From Portibacter lacus (lineage in GTDB: Bacteria > Bacteroidota > Bacteroidia > Chitinophagales > Saprospiraceae), in contig NZ_JAJNKA010000006.1 of the NCBI RefSeq assembly GCF_021533215.1, positions 186,001 to 250,000 of the forward strand: a stretch of 64,000 nt of DNA, given 5' to 3'. A program made the position numbers and the translations under genes. Of the stretch, positions 4,122 through 9,544 are shown one piece after another. Under the pieces are notes generated by a model. That model had not been told where the DNA came from. It saw nothing but the letters and a program-made list of their open reading frames with translations, and ran no database searches. The stretch's first letter is position 1. Every line of letters starts with the position of its first letter.

Positions 4122-5204
4122 ATGAAACATTTTCTACTTGCATTTCTGTCCGTAATGAGTTTTACAGTATTTGCTCAACAAATGGATTTCGAATCATATG
4201 ATCCACCGTCGACATTAGTTGTTCCTGAAAATCCAAAGAGCCACGCTAAGTTTCCATTCATAGATGTACATTCCCATCACTGGAGAATGGCAGAGATGGA
4301 TCTTGGTAAGTTAATTGGAGAAATGGATTCGCTGAATATGCAAGTTATCGTAAATCTAAGTGGTAGAGGAGGGGAGCACTTGGTTGGAATCATGGAAAAT
4401 GTTAATAAAAGTGTCCACAAACCAAGAATTATCAACTTTACCAACATAGAGTTGAGAAGTATTGATGAACCAGATTGGACGTCAGAAACTGTAAAGCAGA
4501 TTGAGTTTGATTATAAAACTGGTGCAAGAGGACTTAAGATTTATAAGAGTCAGGGGATGACAAATGTGGATTCGAAGGGAGAAAGAATAAGAATAGATGA
4601 TCCACGAATAGGACCTGTATTTGAAAAATGTGGTGAGCTAGGGATTCCAGTGCTTATCCATAGTGCAGACCCGAAGTCTTTTTGGGAGCCAATGGATTCT
4701 CTAAATGAAAGATGGCTAGAATTGAAAACGCATTCTCGTCGTAAGCGTGGACCGAATGATCCAGCGCCATGGGAAACCATTATAGAAGAACAACATAATA
4801 TCTTTAGAGCGCATCCGAATACCAATTTCATTGCTGCGCATATGGGCTGGTATCCGAATAACTTAGGAAAGTTAGGAGAGTTACTTGATGAGATGCCGAA
4901 TATGTATGTTGAGATAGGTGCTGTTATAGCAGAACTAGGTAGACAGCCGAGAGCGGCGAATCGATTCTTTGAGAAATATCAAGATAGGGTGTTGTTTGGT
5001 AAGGATTCTTATAAGCCTGAGGAATATCCTACTTATTTCAGAGTGTTAGAATCTGATGATGAGTATTTTCCATATTATAAAAGATATCACGCTTTTTGGA
5101 AAATGTATGGATTAGCTCTACCTGATGAAATATTAAAGAAATTGTATTATAAAAATGCGATTAAGTTGATACCAGGAATTGATGCAAGTATGTTTCCGGA
5201 GTAA
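4122..5204 (+). CDS. Exported metal-dependent amidohydrolase (amidohydrolase-2 type TIM barrel)
   Basis: A 360-residue protein with a Sec signal peptide (residues 1-19, cleavage after FA). The barrel opens with FIDVHSHHW, whose HxH pair are the usual first metal ligands; later come VLIHSADP, AAHMGWYPNN and VLFGKDSY, which supply the expected His, His and Asp of this superfamily. These residues fit the amidohydrolase-2 (uronate isomerase/decarboxylase-like) group, hydrolases and decarboxylases acting on small carboxylic substrates. The signal peptide is worth noting because many relatives are cytoplasmic. The gene stands alone, divergent from the sigma operon, with its own promoter at 4067-4095. 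Substrate cannot be assigned. Confidence 0.8.
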   Translation: MKHFLLAFLSVMSFTVFAQQMDFESYDPPSTLVVPENPKSHAKFPFIDVHSHHWRMAEMDLGKLIGEMDSLNMQVIVNLSGRGGEHLVGIMENVNKSVHKPRIINFTNIELRSIDEPDWTSETVKQIEFDYKTGARGLKIYKSQGMTNVDSKGERIRIDDPRIGPVFEKCGELGIPVLIHSADPKSFWEPMDSLNERWLELKTHSRRKRGPNDPAPWETIIEEQHNIFRAHPNTNFIAAHMGWYPNNLGKLGELLDEMPNMYVEIGAVIAELGRQPRAANRFFEKYQDRVLFGKDSYKPEEYPTYFRVLESDDEYFPYYKRYHAFWKMYGLALPDEILKKLYYKNAIKLIPGIDASMFPE

Positions 5205-5262
5205 GATTCTGTGGAATAAATTTTAAGATCTATAAGCCGAGAATGGCTAGGTGTGTTGGCGA

Positions 5263-5436
5263 GGATTGCAGAGCTGAAAGGAATAAAAATGGCTCATCAG
5301 TCCCTACAGATTGTCATTGATAAAACCTCAATTAAGATATTACTAGGAATTAAATTTTCCAGATACAAGTATGCCCTCATTACGGGCTTAAAGGTCCATT
5401 TTTAGTGCGATTTTATACCCATCGGCTCTGCAATCC
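5263..5436. repeat. Repeat element copy 1, 174 bp with 12-bp terminal inverted repeats
   Basis: Left end GGATTGCAGAGC at 5263-5274, right end GCTCTGCAATCC at 5425-5436, perfect inverted repeats. The interior carries a 38-codon ORF starting at 5289 that is present in all copies but not conserved as protein. Confidence 0.85.
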
Positions 5437-5571
5437 CTTCATTATGATGTCCTTCAATTTTCATCATTATCAACTGCTAGAAGTGCAACCCACTATTCTT
5501 ATGCATGACCACGTTCGGGCGTACAGATCCAATTAGATCTGTAAGCCGAGAAGGGCATAGTGCGAAGGCTA

Positions 5572-5860
5572 GGATTGCAGAGCTGAATGTAAGAGCTCAT
5601 GGGGCAAAAAAAACTCATGATATCACCTCCAGGACTTGTCCGATTACCAGCGGAACTTGTCCGATTACCAGCAGATGCGTGAATGTTTTTTGGAGAGTGT
5701 TAGCTCATAAAAATGGCTCATCAGTCCCTACAGATTGTCATTACTAAAACCTCAATTAAGATATTACAAGGCATTAAGTTTTCCAGATACGAGTATACAT
5801 TCATTACGGGCTTAAAGGTCCATTTTTAGTACGATTTCATACCCATCGGCTCTGCAATCC
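5572..5860. repeat. Repeat element copy 2, expanded to 289 bp by an internal insertion
   Basis: Left end at 5572-5583 and right end at 5849-5860, the same 12-bp inverted repeats. About 119 nt (5588-5706) replace 4 nt found in the other copies, a net gain of 115 bp. The inserted DNA has an 18-nt sequence, ACTTGTCCGATTACCAGC, twice in tandem (5634-5651 and 5655-5672, period 21). Confidence 0.85.
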
Positions 5861-5994
5861 CTTCATTATGATGTCCTTTAATTTTCATCATGATTCACTT
5901 CCAGAAGTACAATCATTATTCTCAAGCAAGACCACGTTCGGGCGTACAGATCCATTTAGATCTGTAAGCCGAGAATGGCATAGTGCGAAGGCGA

Positions 5995-6168
5995 GGATTG
6001 CAGAGCTGAAAGGAATAAAAATGGCTCATCAGTCCCTACAGATTGTCATTACTAAAACCTCAATTAAGATATTACTAGGAATTAAGTTTTCCAGATACAA
6101 GTACACATTCATTTCGGGCTTAAAGGTCCATTTTTAGTACGATTTCATACCCATCGGCTCTGCAATCC
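5995..6168. repeat. Repeat element copy 3, 174 bp
   Basis: Left end GGATTGCAGAGC at 5995-6006 and right end GCTCTGCAATCC at 6157-6168. Same length as copies 1 and 4. Confidence 0.85.
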
Positions 6169-6302
6169 CTTCATTATGATGTCCTTTAATTTTCATCATG
6201 ATTCACTTCCAGAAGTACAATCATTATTCTCAAGCAAGACCACGTTCGGGCGTACAGATCCAATTAGATCTGTAAGCCGAGAATGGCTAGGTGCGCTGGC
6301 AA

Positions 6303-6476
6303 GGATTGCAGAGCTGAAAGGAATAAAAATGGCTCATCAGTCCCTACAGATTGTCATTGCTAAAACCTCAATTAAGATATTACTAGGAATTAAAATTTCC
6401 AGATACAAGTATGCCCTCATTACGGGCTTAAAGGTCCATTTTTAGCACGATTTCAGACCTATCGGCTCTGCAATCC
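6303..6476. repeat. Repeat element copy 4, 174 bp
   Basis: Left end at 6303-6314 and right end at 6465-6476, perfect 12-bp inverted repeats. The array ends about 100 bp downstream at the CAGATCC half of the junction palindrome. Confidence 0.85.
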
Positions 6477-6730
6477 CTTTATTATGATGTCCTTTAATTT
6501 TCATCATGATCAACTTCGAGAAGTACAATCACTATTCTCAAGCAAGACCACGTTCGGGCGTACAGATCCATCTATTTCAGATCCATTTTATAACAGGTCA
6601 TAATCGTTAAAATTATGTTATAGTTCTACATTCCAAGTCGACAGAAACTCAGATTAATTCGTTTGTTTACCAAATAAGCTCGCAATAAAAATCAGCTTAA
6701 AAGCAATAATCTTACAATAAAAATCAAATC

Positions 6731-7288
6731 ATGAAACAACTCTTCATCATTTTCAGCTTTGCTATTTTTCAATTAAATATATCTGCTCAAAATACGGAAA
6801 AGGTTGTGGGTCAACCAGAACTATCTAAATTTGAAATAGGAATACAACGTGGGAGCACAAGTTCCATCGGCGGTGGAATTTTAATTAGTTTTAATCGATA
6901 TTTATCCGAAAAAAACATACTCCATTTTAATTTTACACCTTACTATGCTGCATCATCCAATTCATTTCTAGGAACATTCGAATTTTGGAACGAGTATAGA
7001 AATTACCTTGGAAAAAGAGGAACTTTCTATCTATCCCATGGTCCAGAATTTAACCTCGGTGATCGAAATAAAAATTTGCTTCAAGTTCAAGGAGAACCGA
7101 TCAAGTCTAAATTTGCCGTCGGTCTCGGATATGGACTTGGTATAGGCCAAGTAATAAATGAACGATTAACTTTTACGGCTAATGTAAAATATAGATATAA
7201 CTACGTCACTACTTGGGACAATGGTGTTTCATCAGAATTTAAGCCAGAGATCAATCTTTCAATTGGTGTAAATTATAGATTTAAATAG
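6731..7288 (+). CDS. Small outer-membrane beta-barrel protein, function unknown
   Basis: A 185-residue protein with a signal peptide (residues 1-19, LNISAQ). The mature part alternates polar and hydrophobic residues with Gly and aromatic positions (GGGILISFNRYL, LHFNFTPYY, FAVGLGYGLGIG, LSIGVNYRFK), consistent with an 8-strand barrel that ends in the usual Tyr-x-Phe. No catalytic motif is visible. It stands alone between the repeat array and a convergent gene at 7320-8018. It is probably a small outer-membrane protein of the OmpW/PorT-like kind, but no family can be named with confidence. Confidence 0.65.
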   Translation: MKQLFIIFSFAIFQLNISAQNTEKVVGQPELSKFEIGIQRGSTSSIGGGILISFNRYLSEKNILHFNFTPYYAASSNSFLGTFEFWNEYRNYLGKRGTFYLSHGPEFNLGDRNKNLLQVQGEPIKSKFAVGLGYGLGIGQVINERLTFTANVKYRYNYVTTWDNGVSSEFKPEINLSIGVNYRFK

Positions 7289-7319: not shown

Positions 7320-8018
7320 CTATCTGCCGCAGACTAGACGAAGCTGAGTCCCACAGGAAATATTATTTTTGAAGTTGCTGTTGATGCCAGTTAATTGTCC
7401 AGCATATGGTGCACTAATGCTATAGGTGAAAACCGTTCCTCTTTCAGATAATGCACCACTTGATGAAAGATAACTAAAGCAGTTATTATAGTTGGAAAAA
7501 CTCGTTAAGTTACTACCTACAGTTCCCGCCCTATAACTTGTGGACATTACCCAGTAATCAGTATTTAGACTTAATGTACCCATGTTATTATGAGACATAG
7601 CGTCATTAATTTCGCTAACATCGTAAAAATGTGCAGAAGGTTCCTCAGGGTAGGTTGCTTTACACATAGCGTCCGCAGCAACAAGTCCTGTAAATGAGTT
7701 ATAAGAAAAAGAGCCATCTGTTGTCAAATTAGATGGACCTAAAATATACTTTTCCCTGTTCAAGCTTAGAGGTATCCATGTCGCCCCATCAAAGCCGTAA
7801 AATAATCCATTTTCAAATTTTATAGCCCCTGGTTTTTCAGAACTTAATGTCCCCAAAATTACTCCTCGCTGTGCGTTAACCTCGCCATTAACTGTTAAAT
7901 TTCCTTGATGTACAATTAAATGTGCCGAATCAATTCCAGAGGATTCGATAACAACTGTGCTTTGACCATTTAGAAGATTTACAAATGAAAAAAGGAGGAT
8001 TAGATGATATAGTCGCAT
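7320..8018 (-). CDS. Secreted protein with a tail-fibre-like segment and a Cys-containing C-terminal domain
   Basis: The chosen start is the ATG at 8018, directly before a good signal peptide (MRLYHLILLFSF, cleavage near NGQ); the frame extends 20 codons further up to 8078, but those residues are not signal-like. The mature protein begins with a beta-rich segment (LIVHQGNLTVNGEV) and the motif FYGFDGATWIPL, seen in tail-fibre-like Bacteroidota proteins and echoed in the 15559-17979 protein. The C-terminal half has AADAMCKATYP, FSNYNNC, and the end CGTQLRLVCGR, so paired cysteines may form disulfides as in lectin-like secreted domains. No T9SS sorting tail is present. Function unknown. Confidence 0.6.
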   Translation of the reverse strand: MRLYHLILLFSFVNLLNGQSTVVIESSGIDSAHLIVHQGNLTVNGEVNAQRGVILGTLSSEKPGAIKFENGLFYGFDGATWIPLSLNREKYILGPSNLTTDGSFSYNSFTGLVAADAMCKATYPEEPSAHFYDVSEINDAMSHNNMGTLSLNTDYWVMSTSYRAGTVGSNLTSFSNYNNCFSYLSSSGALSERGTVFTYSISAPYAGQLTGINSNFKNNISCGTQLRLVCGR

Positions 8019-8389
8019 AGCATTGGATTTTATTTGAAGTAATGGTTTAAGTTTAGTTGTCGCCCTAGGAATTTGCATTGACCTAAAAATATAATGTCAA
8101 TGTAGGATCAATAATTGTCAACGACAACACTTGATTAGTTTAAGGTAAGAACCACTTGGTTAGGAGTCAATTCTATTATATATTCTGCTATGATTGTCCC
8201 GCTAAATGGTTGAAGCGGCCTTAATGTCAGAAACATTGATTAAACCAAAATTTTTCAATACTAGAAATAAGAATATTATTAATACACGTGTAAATAATAC
8301 ACATGTAGGACTTGATGCGGTATAAAATAGCATTTTGATTTAAGGTTATAGTTGATAAATTTTCATAAGTTCACGCAAGATTTTATCAA
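8019..8389. other. Intergenic region of about 370 bp without a recognised gene
   Basis: The stretch separates two divergent genes and should hold both promoters. No TAnnTTTG box stands out. Two near-identical segments, AATACACGTGTA and AATACACATGTA, sit 16 nt apart around 8279-8308, and TTGTCAACGACAA near 8115 is a short inverted repeat; either could be a regulator site, but nothing else supports that. Confidence 0.35.
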
Positions 8390-9544
8390 ATGAAACAATT
8401 AGCCCTCTTCTTCTCACTTTTCTTCCTGAGTACATCTATAAATGCTCAGAATGCAAATTCTTATTTTCCTGAAAAAGGCGACTGGGAAACAACAACTTCC
8501 AAAGCAGCTGGTTTCTCTGATGCCTTGCTAGATTCAGTAGTGAATTATGCAATAAAACATGAATATTCAGGTGCAATAGACTTAAAAGTTGCCATTTTGA
8601 AAGGCTTCGAAAGGGAACCTTATCATGAAATTTTAGGTCCAACAAAAGATAGAGGAAGACCAGCAGGTATCATTCTACATAAAGGAAGAATCCTTAAGCA
8701 GTGGGGCGATGTTGATAGAGTAGACATGACCTTCAGTGTCACTAAGAGTTATCTTTCTACGGTTGCAGGACTAGCAGTTGACGATGGATATTTCAAGGTA
8801 GATGATCCTGTTGCAAATTTGATTTGGGATGGAAACTTTGATGGTCGGCATAACAGCAAAATAACTTGGAGACATCTCTTAACTCAATCTTCAGATTGGT
8901 CAGGTGAATTATTTGGCGGAAAAGACTGGGCAGATCGACCACCATCAGAGGGTGAAATTGATGATTGGAAAAATAGATCTTTCAATGAACCGGGAAAAGT
9001 ATTCGAATACAATGATGTCAGAGTAAATCTGCTCGCTTATTCTTTATTAAATGTACTTAGAAAACCACTTCCTCTAGTTTTAAAAGAAAGAATCATGGAT
9101 AAGATCGGTGCTTCACCTACCTGGAGATGGTATGGATATGATCATTCTTGGGTTCCAATAGATGGCTTACAAATGCAATCCGTAAGTGGTGGTGGGCATT
9201 CTGGTGGCGGTATGTTTATTTCTACCCTTGATCATGCTCGCTTTGGACTTTTATTCCAGAATGAAGGTAAGTGGAAGAATGAACAACTGATAAGCAGCGA
9301 ATGGATAAGATTAGCGATCCAACCATCAGAGGCTAATGCTAGTTATGGCTTTATGTGGTGGTTAAACGACGAAAAGGGTAATCGATTTATGGAAGGTATC
9401 GATGAAAATGTATATTACGCGGCTGGATTTGGCGGTAATTTTATAGTGATTGATAAACAGAATGAGCTTGTGATTGTTACCAGATGGTTAGAACCTCGAA
9501 ATCTTAAAGATTTTTTAAATAAGGTCTATTCAGCAATGAATTAA
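8390..9544 (+). CDS. Exported serine hydrolase, class C beta-lactamase / penicillin-binding fold
   Basis: A 384-residue protein with a signal peptide (1-20). The catalytic SxxK motif is SVTK at residues 116-119, with S116 the likely nucleophile. A Tyr-based second motif lies in FEYNDVRVN near 205, and the third box is GGGHSGGGM near 268. This set is that of the beta-lactamase-related serine hydrolases, which include esterases, D-amino peptidases and peptidoglycan carboxypeptidases. Substrate is unclear; true beta-lactamases usually have YxN and KTG, which differ here, so an esterase or peptidase is more likely. The protein would act in the periplasm. It is upstream of a T9SS protein but 44 bp separate them. 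Confidence 0.8.
   Translation: MKQLALFFSLFFLSTSINAQNANSYFPEKGDWETTTSKAAGFSDALLDSVVNYAIKHEYSGAIDLKVAILKGFEREPYHEILGPTKDRGRPAGIILHKGRILKQWGDVDRVDMTFSVTKSYLSTVAGLAVDDGYFKVDDPVANLIWDGNFDGRHNSKITWRHLLTQSSDWSGELFGGKDWADRPPSEGEIDDWKNRSFNEPGKVFEYNDVRVNLLAYSLLNVLRKPLPLVLKERIMDKIGASPTWRWYGYDHSWVPIDGLQMQSVSGGGHSGGGMFISTLDHARFGLLFQNEGKWKNEQLISSEWIRLAIQPSEANASYGFMWWLNDEKGNRFMEGIDENVYYAAGFGGNFIVIDKQNELVIVTRWLEPRNLKDFLNKVYSAMN

Follow-up and report, generated by a model that had tools for sequence, protein, structure and literature searches.

A tandem array of inverted hairpin doublets in Portibacter lacus, a probable REP/REPIN family of a Saprospirales RAYT clade

The window analyzed here, a 64,000-nucleotide stretch of the Portibacter lacus genome, contains a gene-free array of direct repeats, and the question raised by this locus is what kind of element was repeated and how it came to be so. 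Based on the analyses described below, we consider it highly probable that the array represents a REP/REPIN family (REP, repetitive extragenic palindrome) that lacks the usual tag and belongs to a Saprospirales clade of RAYTs (REP-associated tyrosine transposases, with an HUH/Y1 fold), presumably mobilised in trans and tandemly amplified together with its flanks.

Layout of the array

The array occupies positions 5226-6569 of the window (+ strand) and consists of four direct copies of a 308-bp unit, which begin 21 bp past the stop codon of an amidohydrolase-like gene (4122-5204, + strand; named by inspecting its protein, without a family search). The only ORFs of at least 60 aa within it, of 80, 89 and 89 aa, run through the repeat, and the array holds no credible gene. 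The coordinates and this ORF check confirm the first-pass annotation, which had described a four-copy, gene-free direct-repeat array with no transposase beside it, the latter being true locally. A search of the array against Rfam gave zero matches at the gathering score and four chance-level snoRNA matches (E 6-9).

The sequence GGATTGCAGAGC starts at 5263, 5572, 5995 and 6303, and GCTCTGCAATCC ends at 5436, 5860, 6168 and 6476. These perfect 12-bp inverted repeats enclose a segment of 174 bp in copies 1, 3 and 4, as first annotated, and of 289 bp in copy 2, where an extra stretch of approximately 115 bp, at about 5596-5708, had gone unmentioned. Successive elements start 309, 423 and 308 bp apart, and the repeated spacer, given before as 134 bp, measures 134-135 bp. 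Compared with the reference copy over 300 nt without gaps, the remaining three show identities of 69, 96 and 81%, the low value of 69% being due to an offset.

The 174-bp segment had been interpreted as an element with 12-bp terminal inverted repeats, an interpretation that we reject: the repeats are the 3′ arms of two opposed hairpins, and the hairpin alone recurs widely. Each unit comprises a short hairpin (50 nt, + strand) and a long hairpin (106 nt, - strand), which belong to a single imperfect-hairpin family and face opposite ways; both have GGATTGCAGAGC as 3′ arm and GATCTG as 5′ arm, and 4 nt separate a long copy from the following short copy. The short copies are located at 5226-5275 (arms 5226-5238 and 5263-5275, with one stem difference, TCTATAA), 5535-5584, 5958-6007 and 6266-6315, and they match R1, a structure model built from 39 copies, with 65.4 (match 5214-5287), 77.3, 80.0 and 76.3 bits, respectively. 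The long copies are located at 5424-5530 (arms 5424-5436 and 5518-5530), 5848-5953, 6156-6261 and 6464-6569, with R1 scores of 29.6 (match 5412-5542), 26.0, 29.2 and 20.0 bits, respectively; the last of them forms the right border of the array. The first AGATCTATAAGCC begins at 5226, while the last GGCGTACAGATCC finishes at 6569; thus, the array borders are indeed halves of a CAGATC/GATCTG palindrome, now read as the 5′ arms of the hairpins.

The insert in copy 2 belongs to a second hairpin family (AAAAAAC..ATCAC / GTGAT..GTTTTTT), which resembles a two-way terminator and is also present in units 1 and 4 of locus L009, in L018, and in arrays on contigs C41 (L010), C11 (L011), C22 (L024) and C6 (L025). 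By eye, a similar hairpin adjoins the RAYT-like gene at C2:97196 (L169, 1680-1770).

Hairpin structure and dispersal in the genome

The element is composed of a 13-nt arm RGA-N7-GCY, a loop, and a second 13-nt arm RGA-N7′-GCY, where the loop spans 24 nt in the short form and about 80 nt in the long form; the core has the 5′ arm AGATCTGTAAGCC, a loop of near-fixed length and the 3′ arm GGATTGCAGAGCT. The stem shows compensatory variants once more divergent copies are compared (TCTG/CAGA, TCGG/CCGA, TCAG/CTGA and others); a set of 41 diverse copies has both-side changes in 11 of 15 pairs and a covariation score of 0.278, a value reached in none of 500 shuffles, which ignore relatedness. The A.G and G.A mismatches at the stem borders were each retained in 40 of these 41 copies, and their retention while the pairs covary argues against mere palindrome correction. 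In a set of 39 distinct stems, 88% of the stem positions pair, vs 72% after shuffling (none of 2000 shuffles was as high); this count rests on 154 of 182 elements that could be parsed, with the frame imposed by the pattern and the best-pairing arms chosen. In the same stems, G.T cells outnumber A.C cells (42 vs 13), indicating that a single strand folds, namely the + strand. Single-strand DNA folding energies of two window copies were only slightly better for the + strand than for the - strand, one copy favours a different fold, and an element of locus L174 was clearly better on the + strand. RNA folding gave z < -3 in 3 of 10 copies, with the remainder at about -2 to -0.9, and a search for a conserved inner hairpin within the loop found none. 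The element is, in short, an imperfect palindrome with a conserved single-strand fold, as in REP/REPIN sequences; by eye, no GTAG/GTGG or CGTC 5′ foot of canonical REPs is conserved among the elements inspected.

An exact match to the core pattern is present at 55 places in the host genome, compared with 0 for a reversed control pattern, which excludes chance. A sequence search of the genome returned 95 matches, including a near copy of the entire unit approximately 13 kb off (C40:176567-178326); the remaining matches correspond to the 50-70 bp core, the copy 2 insert or a long form at C2:166014. The R1 model gave 118 matches at E≤0.01, a minimum, given that scoring was limited to 122 candidates. 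The fetched host loci hold at least 134 R1 matches, each at a place of its own; 124 are short and 10 long, and 121 of the 134 span 73-76 nt including flanks. The proposal of a non-autonomous, REP-like, dispersed element is supported by these 118 matches, and its amplification by a process that also duplicates the flanking sequence is supported by the arrays with repeated spacers. These arrays of the core have periods from approximately 80 to more than 400 bp and several spacer types, some of which are common to different arrays. Inverted doublets, besides those of the window units, were found in L012, L115, L125 and L146.

Contigs C3, C7, C17, C40 and C41 begin or finish within a few hundred bases of an array, as does C6 with the second hairpin family; the copy numbers of the draft are therefore lower bounds. 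In L013, L015 and L018, the spacers carry a CGCAGATT(T/A)CGC..GATT repeat.

The setting of the family, which has at least 118 copies, is extragenic: in simple ORF calls, no ORF of at least 100 aa covers any of 39 clusters. Both neighbours were called for 28 clusters, whose flanking ORFs are convergent in 13 cases, co-directional in 12 and divergent in 3; the other 11 clusters, lacking a neighbour in the fetched stretch, stand outside this count. The scarcity of clusters between divergent ORFs fits elements tolerated away from promoters. No recurrent gene family that would point to an enzyme was found beside the host elements, where 123 ORFs yielded 7 between-locus protein pairs at E≤1e-5.

A structured RNA element of 3′ UTRs (an mRNA stabiliser, attenuator or ribozyme, for example), duplicated and kept for its RNA function, would also account for the folding of one strand, the compensatory stem changes, the avoidance of ORFs and of divergent gene pairs, and the start of the window array just past a stop codon. 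Nevertheless, we regard this explanation as unlikely: the two members of an inverted doublet face opposite ways; of the 12 clusters flanked by co-directional ORFs, 8 lie on the strand of the genes and 4 on the opposite one, with no clear bias; the array is without an Rfam match; the loop is the fastest-changing part; and the link to RAYT genes, described below, is accounted for by the REP reading. A secondary role of the elements as RNA is possible.

The perfect inverted repeats in all four window copies could also be those of a MITE, with 12-bp terminal inverted repeats recognised by a DDE-type transposase, a reading close to the MITE option of the first-pass annotation. Its distribution makes this very improbable. 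The segment enclosed by the 12-bp repeats is present in the window array, in the neighbouring array on C40 and, in a shortened version, at a single locus of C2, whereas elsewhere the hairpin alone recurs; no recurrence of the repeat-bounded unit at unrelated sites with target duplications was found. When GGATTGCAGAGCNGNA was searched with at most one mismatch, 62 of its 65 places fell within element clusters, the three exceptions being two on C6 and one at C40:336228. Additionally, no transposase gene bounded by the 12-bp repeats was present among the fetched loci, and the genes with related flanks encode HUH enzymes.

RAYT genes beside the hairpins

The repeat initially appeared to be private to the species. 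Plain DNA similarity matched 1 of 60 genomes, the host genome itself; R1 matched none of 39 relatives; and the exact pattern had no match in 84,980 species genomes or viral contigs, a collection that possibly does not include the host genome. This notion was overturned by the wider-family matches of R2, a structure model built from diverse host copies, which matched the host genome and 7 of 149 others of the family, some of them weakly. In G025, the R2 matches are arranged in tandem arrays, and in G093 and G063 as inverted doublets; single weak matches in relatives may be due to chance. The search in relatives that the first-pass annotation had suggested thus gave a divided answer: sequence comparison detected the unit in this genome alone, whereas the structural family extends to other Saprospirales.

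A search with the Pfam Y1 model PF01797 revealed two IS200-like genes and one RAYT-like gene in the host genome, none linked to the element, and the best element score in 11 IS200/RAYT loci from Pfam matches was 13.6 bits. This null result reflects the insensitivity of PF01797, which was overcome with NCBIfam NF047646; the latter detected eight RAYT-like genes in the host genome, all below its cut-off. With the filters off, R2 located the element on both sides of the host RAYT-like genes at C2:185086 and C4:122877 and of one RAYT-like gene of G136; next to partial matches in G125 and G028, it lay on a single side. Altogether, 20 R2 matches above 20 bits lie within 5 of 30 NF047646 loci, 3 of which have copies on both sides. 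Different repeats accompany four other host RAYT-like genes (L143, L147, L161 and L031), L169 has two other hairpins on one side, and no flanking repeat was found at L152.

Two of these loci deserve a description of their own. L031 (780-2450; C38:204333-204824) contains a RAYT-like gene with the unusual Y motif YIIHNARKH and an unrelated tandem repeat of about 120 bp on both sides. In L147, palindromes of the CTCGTACTTCAGTACGAG type (1289-1484 and 2198-2353) flank the RAYT-like gene and resemble spacer pieces of the arrays L016, L017, L019, L020 and L027, forming a mosaic of several REP-like families.

A profile of three RAYT-like proteins retrieved 505 relatives from public genomes, and in the loci of the best 80 of the 505, R2 gave 27 matches at E≤0.1 in 8 loci, all from Saprospirales (Flavilitoribacter nigricans is placed in Lewinellaceae, Membranihabitans in Saprospiraceae); one of them, L182, coincides with L146. 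Turning the filters off and allowing E≤0.5 gave matches in 10 of 16 selected loci. JABDMH010000101.1 (a Saprospiraceae MAG) and contig C5 of G136 carry identical elements. Copies were present on both sides of the gene in 7 of the 10 loci. In all, 29 of 52 matches fall no more than 250 bp from a gene end, a zone that holds 13.6% of the bases, and zero lie inside the matched gene stretch, a distance count that is weakened because matches of one array are not independent. The RAYT-linked matches score only about 20-43 bits, with rough E-values. Members of the structural family flank RAYT genes, in the arrangement known as a REPtron.

For the main TCTGTAA/TTGCAGA subfamily, to which the elements of the window belong, no flanked RAYT was found in the 43-contig draft when its 8 RAYT-like genes and 2 IS200-like genes were scanned to about 1.5 kb in both directions. 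The earlier suggestion of a transposase with the same ends is accordingly borne out at the level of the hairpin family and not at that of the subfamily. The best candidate is the RAYT at C4:122877, which may handle the window's elements, because the elements beside it have the outer stem AACATTTAG in common with many main-subfamily copies.

The RAYTs with such hairpin flanks mostly appear to form one clade. When 86 proteins were placed in a tree, all but one of the 11 RAYTs with elements, together with L175 (a weak match), constituted one group with support 99/87, a statement for which row L181 (a mistranslation with a branch of 9.6) was set aside; formally, three changes of the element label are required, and the bootstrap was not yet stable. 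The proteins contain the motifs NHFH and Y-x-HHNP. A 14-sequence profile had TnpArep 4er8 as its sole PDB match (E 3e-6), and PDB searches with one or with three of the proteins gave zero matches. The AF2 model of the F. nigricans RAYT (L174; pLDDT 94.9) has 4er8, a RAYT bound to a REP hairpin, as its best fold match (E 6e-8, TM 0.55/0.68), with the ISDra2 and IS608 enzymes ranking below. Motifs, profile and fold are thus those of a TnpA-REP protein, while the NCBIfam scores, 42-55 bits, remain below the curated cut-off of 80, and one of three RAYT proteins has no match in Pfam.

Likeness to known systems and origin of the array

REP families are, to our knowledge, less well characterised outside Proteobacteria; among the papers listed by our literature search, none dealt with REPs or RAYTs of Saprospiraceae, and no detailed description of this form of hairpin was found. 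The REP/REPIN/BIME sequences of E. coli and Pseudomonas fluorescens, as portrayed in the relevant parts of PMC3116915 and PMC3733652, share with our elements the form of extragenic imperfect palindromes in high copy number and inverted doublets, the flanking of RAYT genes by copies, and clusters repeated in tandem with flanking DNA. In contrast to them, the elements described here lack a GTAG or CGTC foot and have 13-nt arms with two fixed purine mismatches, loops of 5 to about 80 nt and many tandem arrays. A second possible parallel is the TnpA-REP subclass 2.6 (RAYT group 5 according to its authors), which is mostly from Bacteroidetes: where PMC6006769 treats this subclass, it reports genes with a table length of 179 aa, flanked by “atypical secondary structures” that lack a GT[AG]G foot and have copies elsewhere in the genome. 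The hairpin family may be one well-resolved case of these structures, a comparison made by description only, as no consensus is given in that part of the source. The subclass motifs NH[LIV]H and YIH[QN]NP (PMC6006769) compare with NHFH and Y-x-HHNP here, so that a placement of the Saprospirales clade in subclass 2.6 would be one of loose motif likeness only. The main text of PMC12306157, in which the word RAYT is absent, detects REPs by generic palindromes. Like IS200/IS605 ends, our elements are single-strand hairpins associated with an HUH/Y1 transposase; unlike them, the RAYT genes lie amid many hairpin copies, with no discrete two-ended element.

The repetition of the array spacers along with the elements raises the possibility that a chance palindromic segment was duplicated locally, without mobility. 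Tandem duplication does explain the array itself; for the family, however, dispersal speaks against it, since over 100 copies are spread across 39 clusters whose spacers are of several unrelated types, and there are related elements beside RAYT genes in other genera, and we give this account slightly less credence than the MITE. That the array consists of gene-less integron attC sites (CALIN-like), which are likewise imperfect hairpins with conserved mismatched bases, one-strand folding and occurrence in arrays, is hardly credible, since the arms are RGA-N7-GCY, the RYYYAAC/GTTRRRY core sites of attC were not seen by inspection, and linkage to RAYT is observed instead of cassettes with ORFs.

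Membership of the window array in a RAYT-linked REP family is well supported, and its history at this site can be approached through two congeners that lack the array after their orthologue of the amidohydrolase-like gene. There, this frame is followed by one matching window positions 8390-9544, at once in G002 and after approximately 120 bp in G001. The absence in both congeners means that the array was either gained here or lost in both. The window ORFs at 6731-7288 and 7320-8078, directly after the array, are also absent, so the congener site is not a clean empty site, and the array lies at the edge of a larger lineage-specific stretch.

Within arrays, the divergence is 0.046 in arms, 0.092 in spacers and 0.130 in loops; in the window array, the values are 0.019, 0.073 and 0.213, respectively. 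The loop changes faster than the spacer in 12 of 18 arrays (1 tie), and the arms change more slowly than the spacer in 14 of 18 (1 tie). The faster change of the loop relative to the neighbouring spacer would fit mutagenic exposure of an extruded single strand. No DGR-like, adenine-specific pattern was detected in the loop: columns grouped by their majority base had 0.32 (A), 0.39 (C), 0.23 (G) and 0.35 (T) variants each, and the share of transitions is 0.46 in loops and 0.47 in spacers.

By analogy with E. coli, where RAYT binds the folded single strand, cleaves it and rejoins it (according to the parts of PMC3733652 and PMC6006769 on its activity), a RAYT would act on the hairpins in trans and thereby spread the REPs; the mobilisation in trans of the TCTGTAA subfamily of the window is inferred on this basis. 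Once REPs are neighbours, unequal recombination or replication slippage between them could multiply the enclosed segment, yielding arrays whose borders often fall at an element arm. Array borders are in fact frequently near an arm, the outcome that recombination or slippage between two direct copies on either side of a segment would produce. Clusters of REPs in tandem with flanking DNA are already known (described in parts of PMC3733652 and PMC3116915). A tentative and rather doubtful extension is that the Saprospirales RAYTs and REPs could form parallel recognition pairs, in which every enzyme would recognise a fixed, A.G/G.A-flanked RGA-N7-GCY frame and the enclosed, covarying 7-bp stem would drift among subfamilies, with several of these per genome.

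For the organism, the arrays may explain breaks in the draft assembly, such as those of the five contigs that start or end close to one. For the family, structures beside Bacteroidetes RAYTs have so far been termed only “atypical” in what PMC6006769 says of them. The consensus obtained here, with its covarying stems and fixed mismatches, together with the RAYT clade, makes the specificity of enzyme and hairpin testable in a new lineage.
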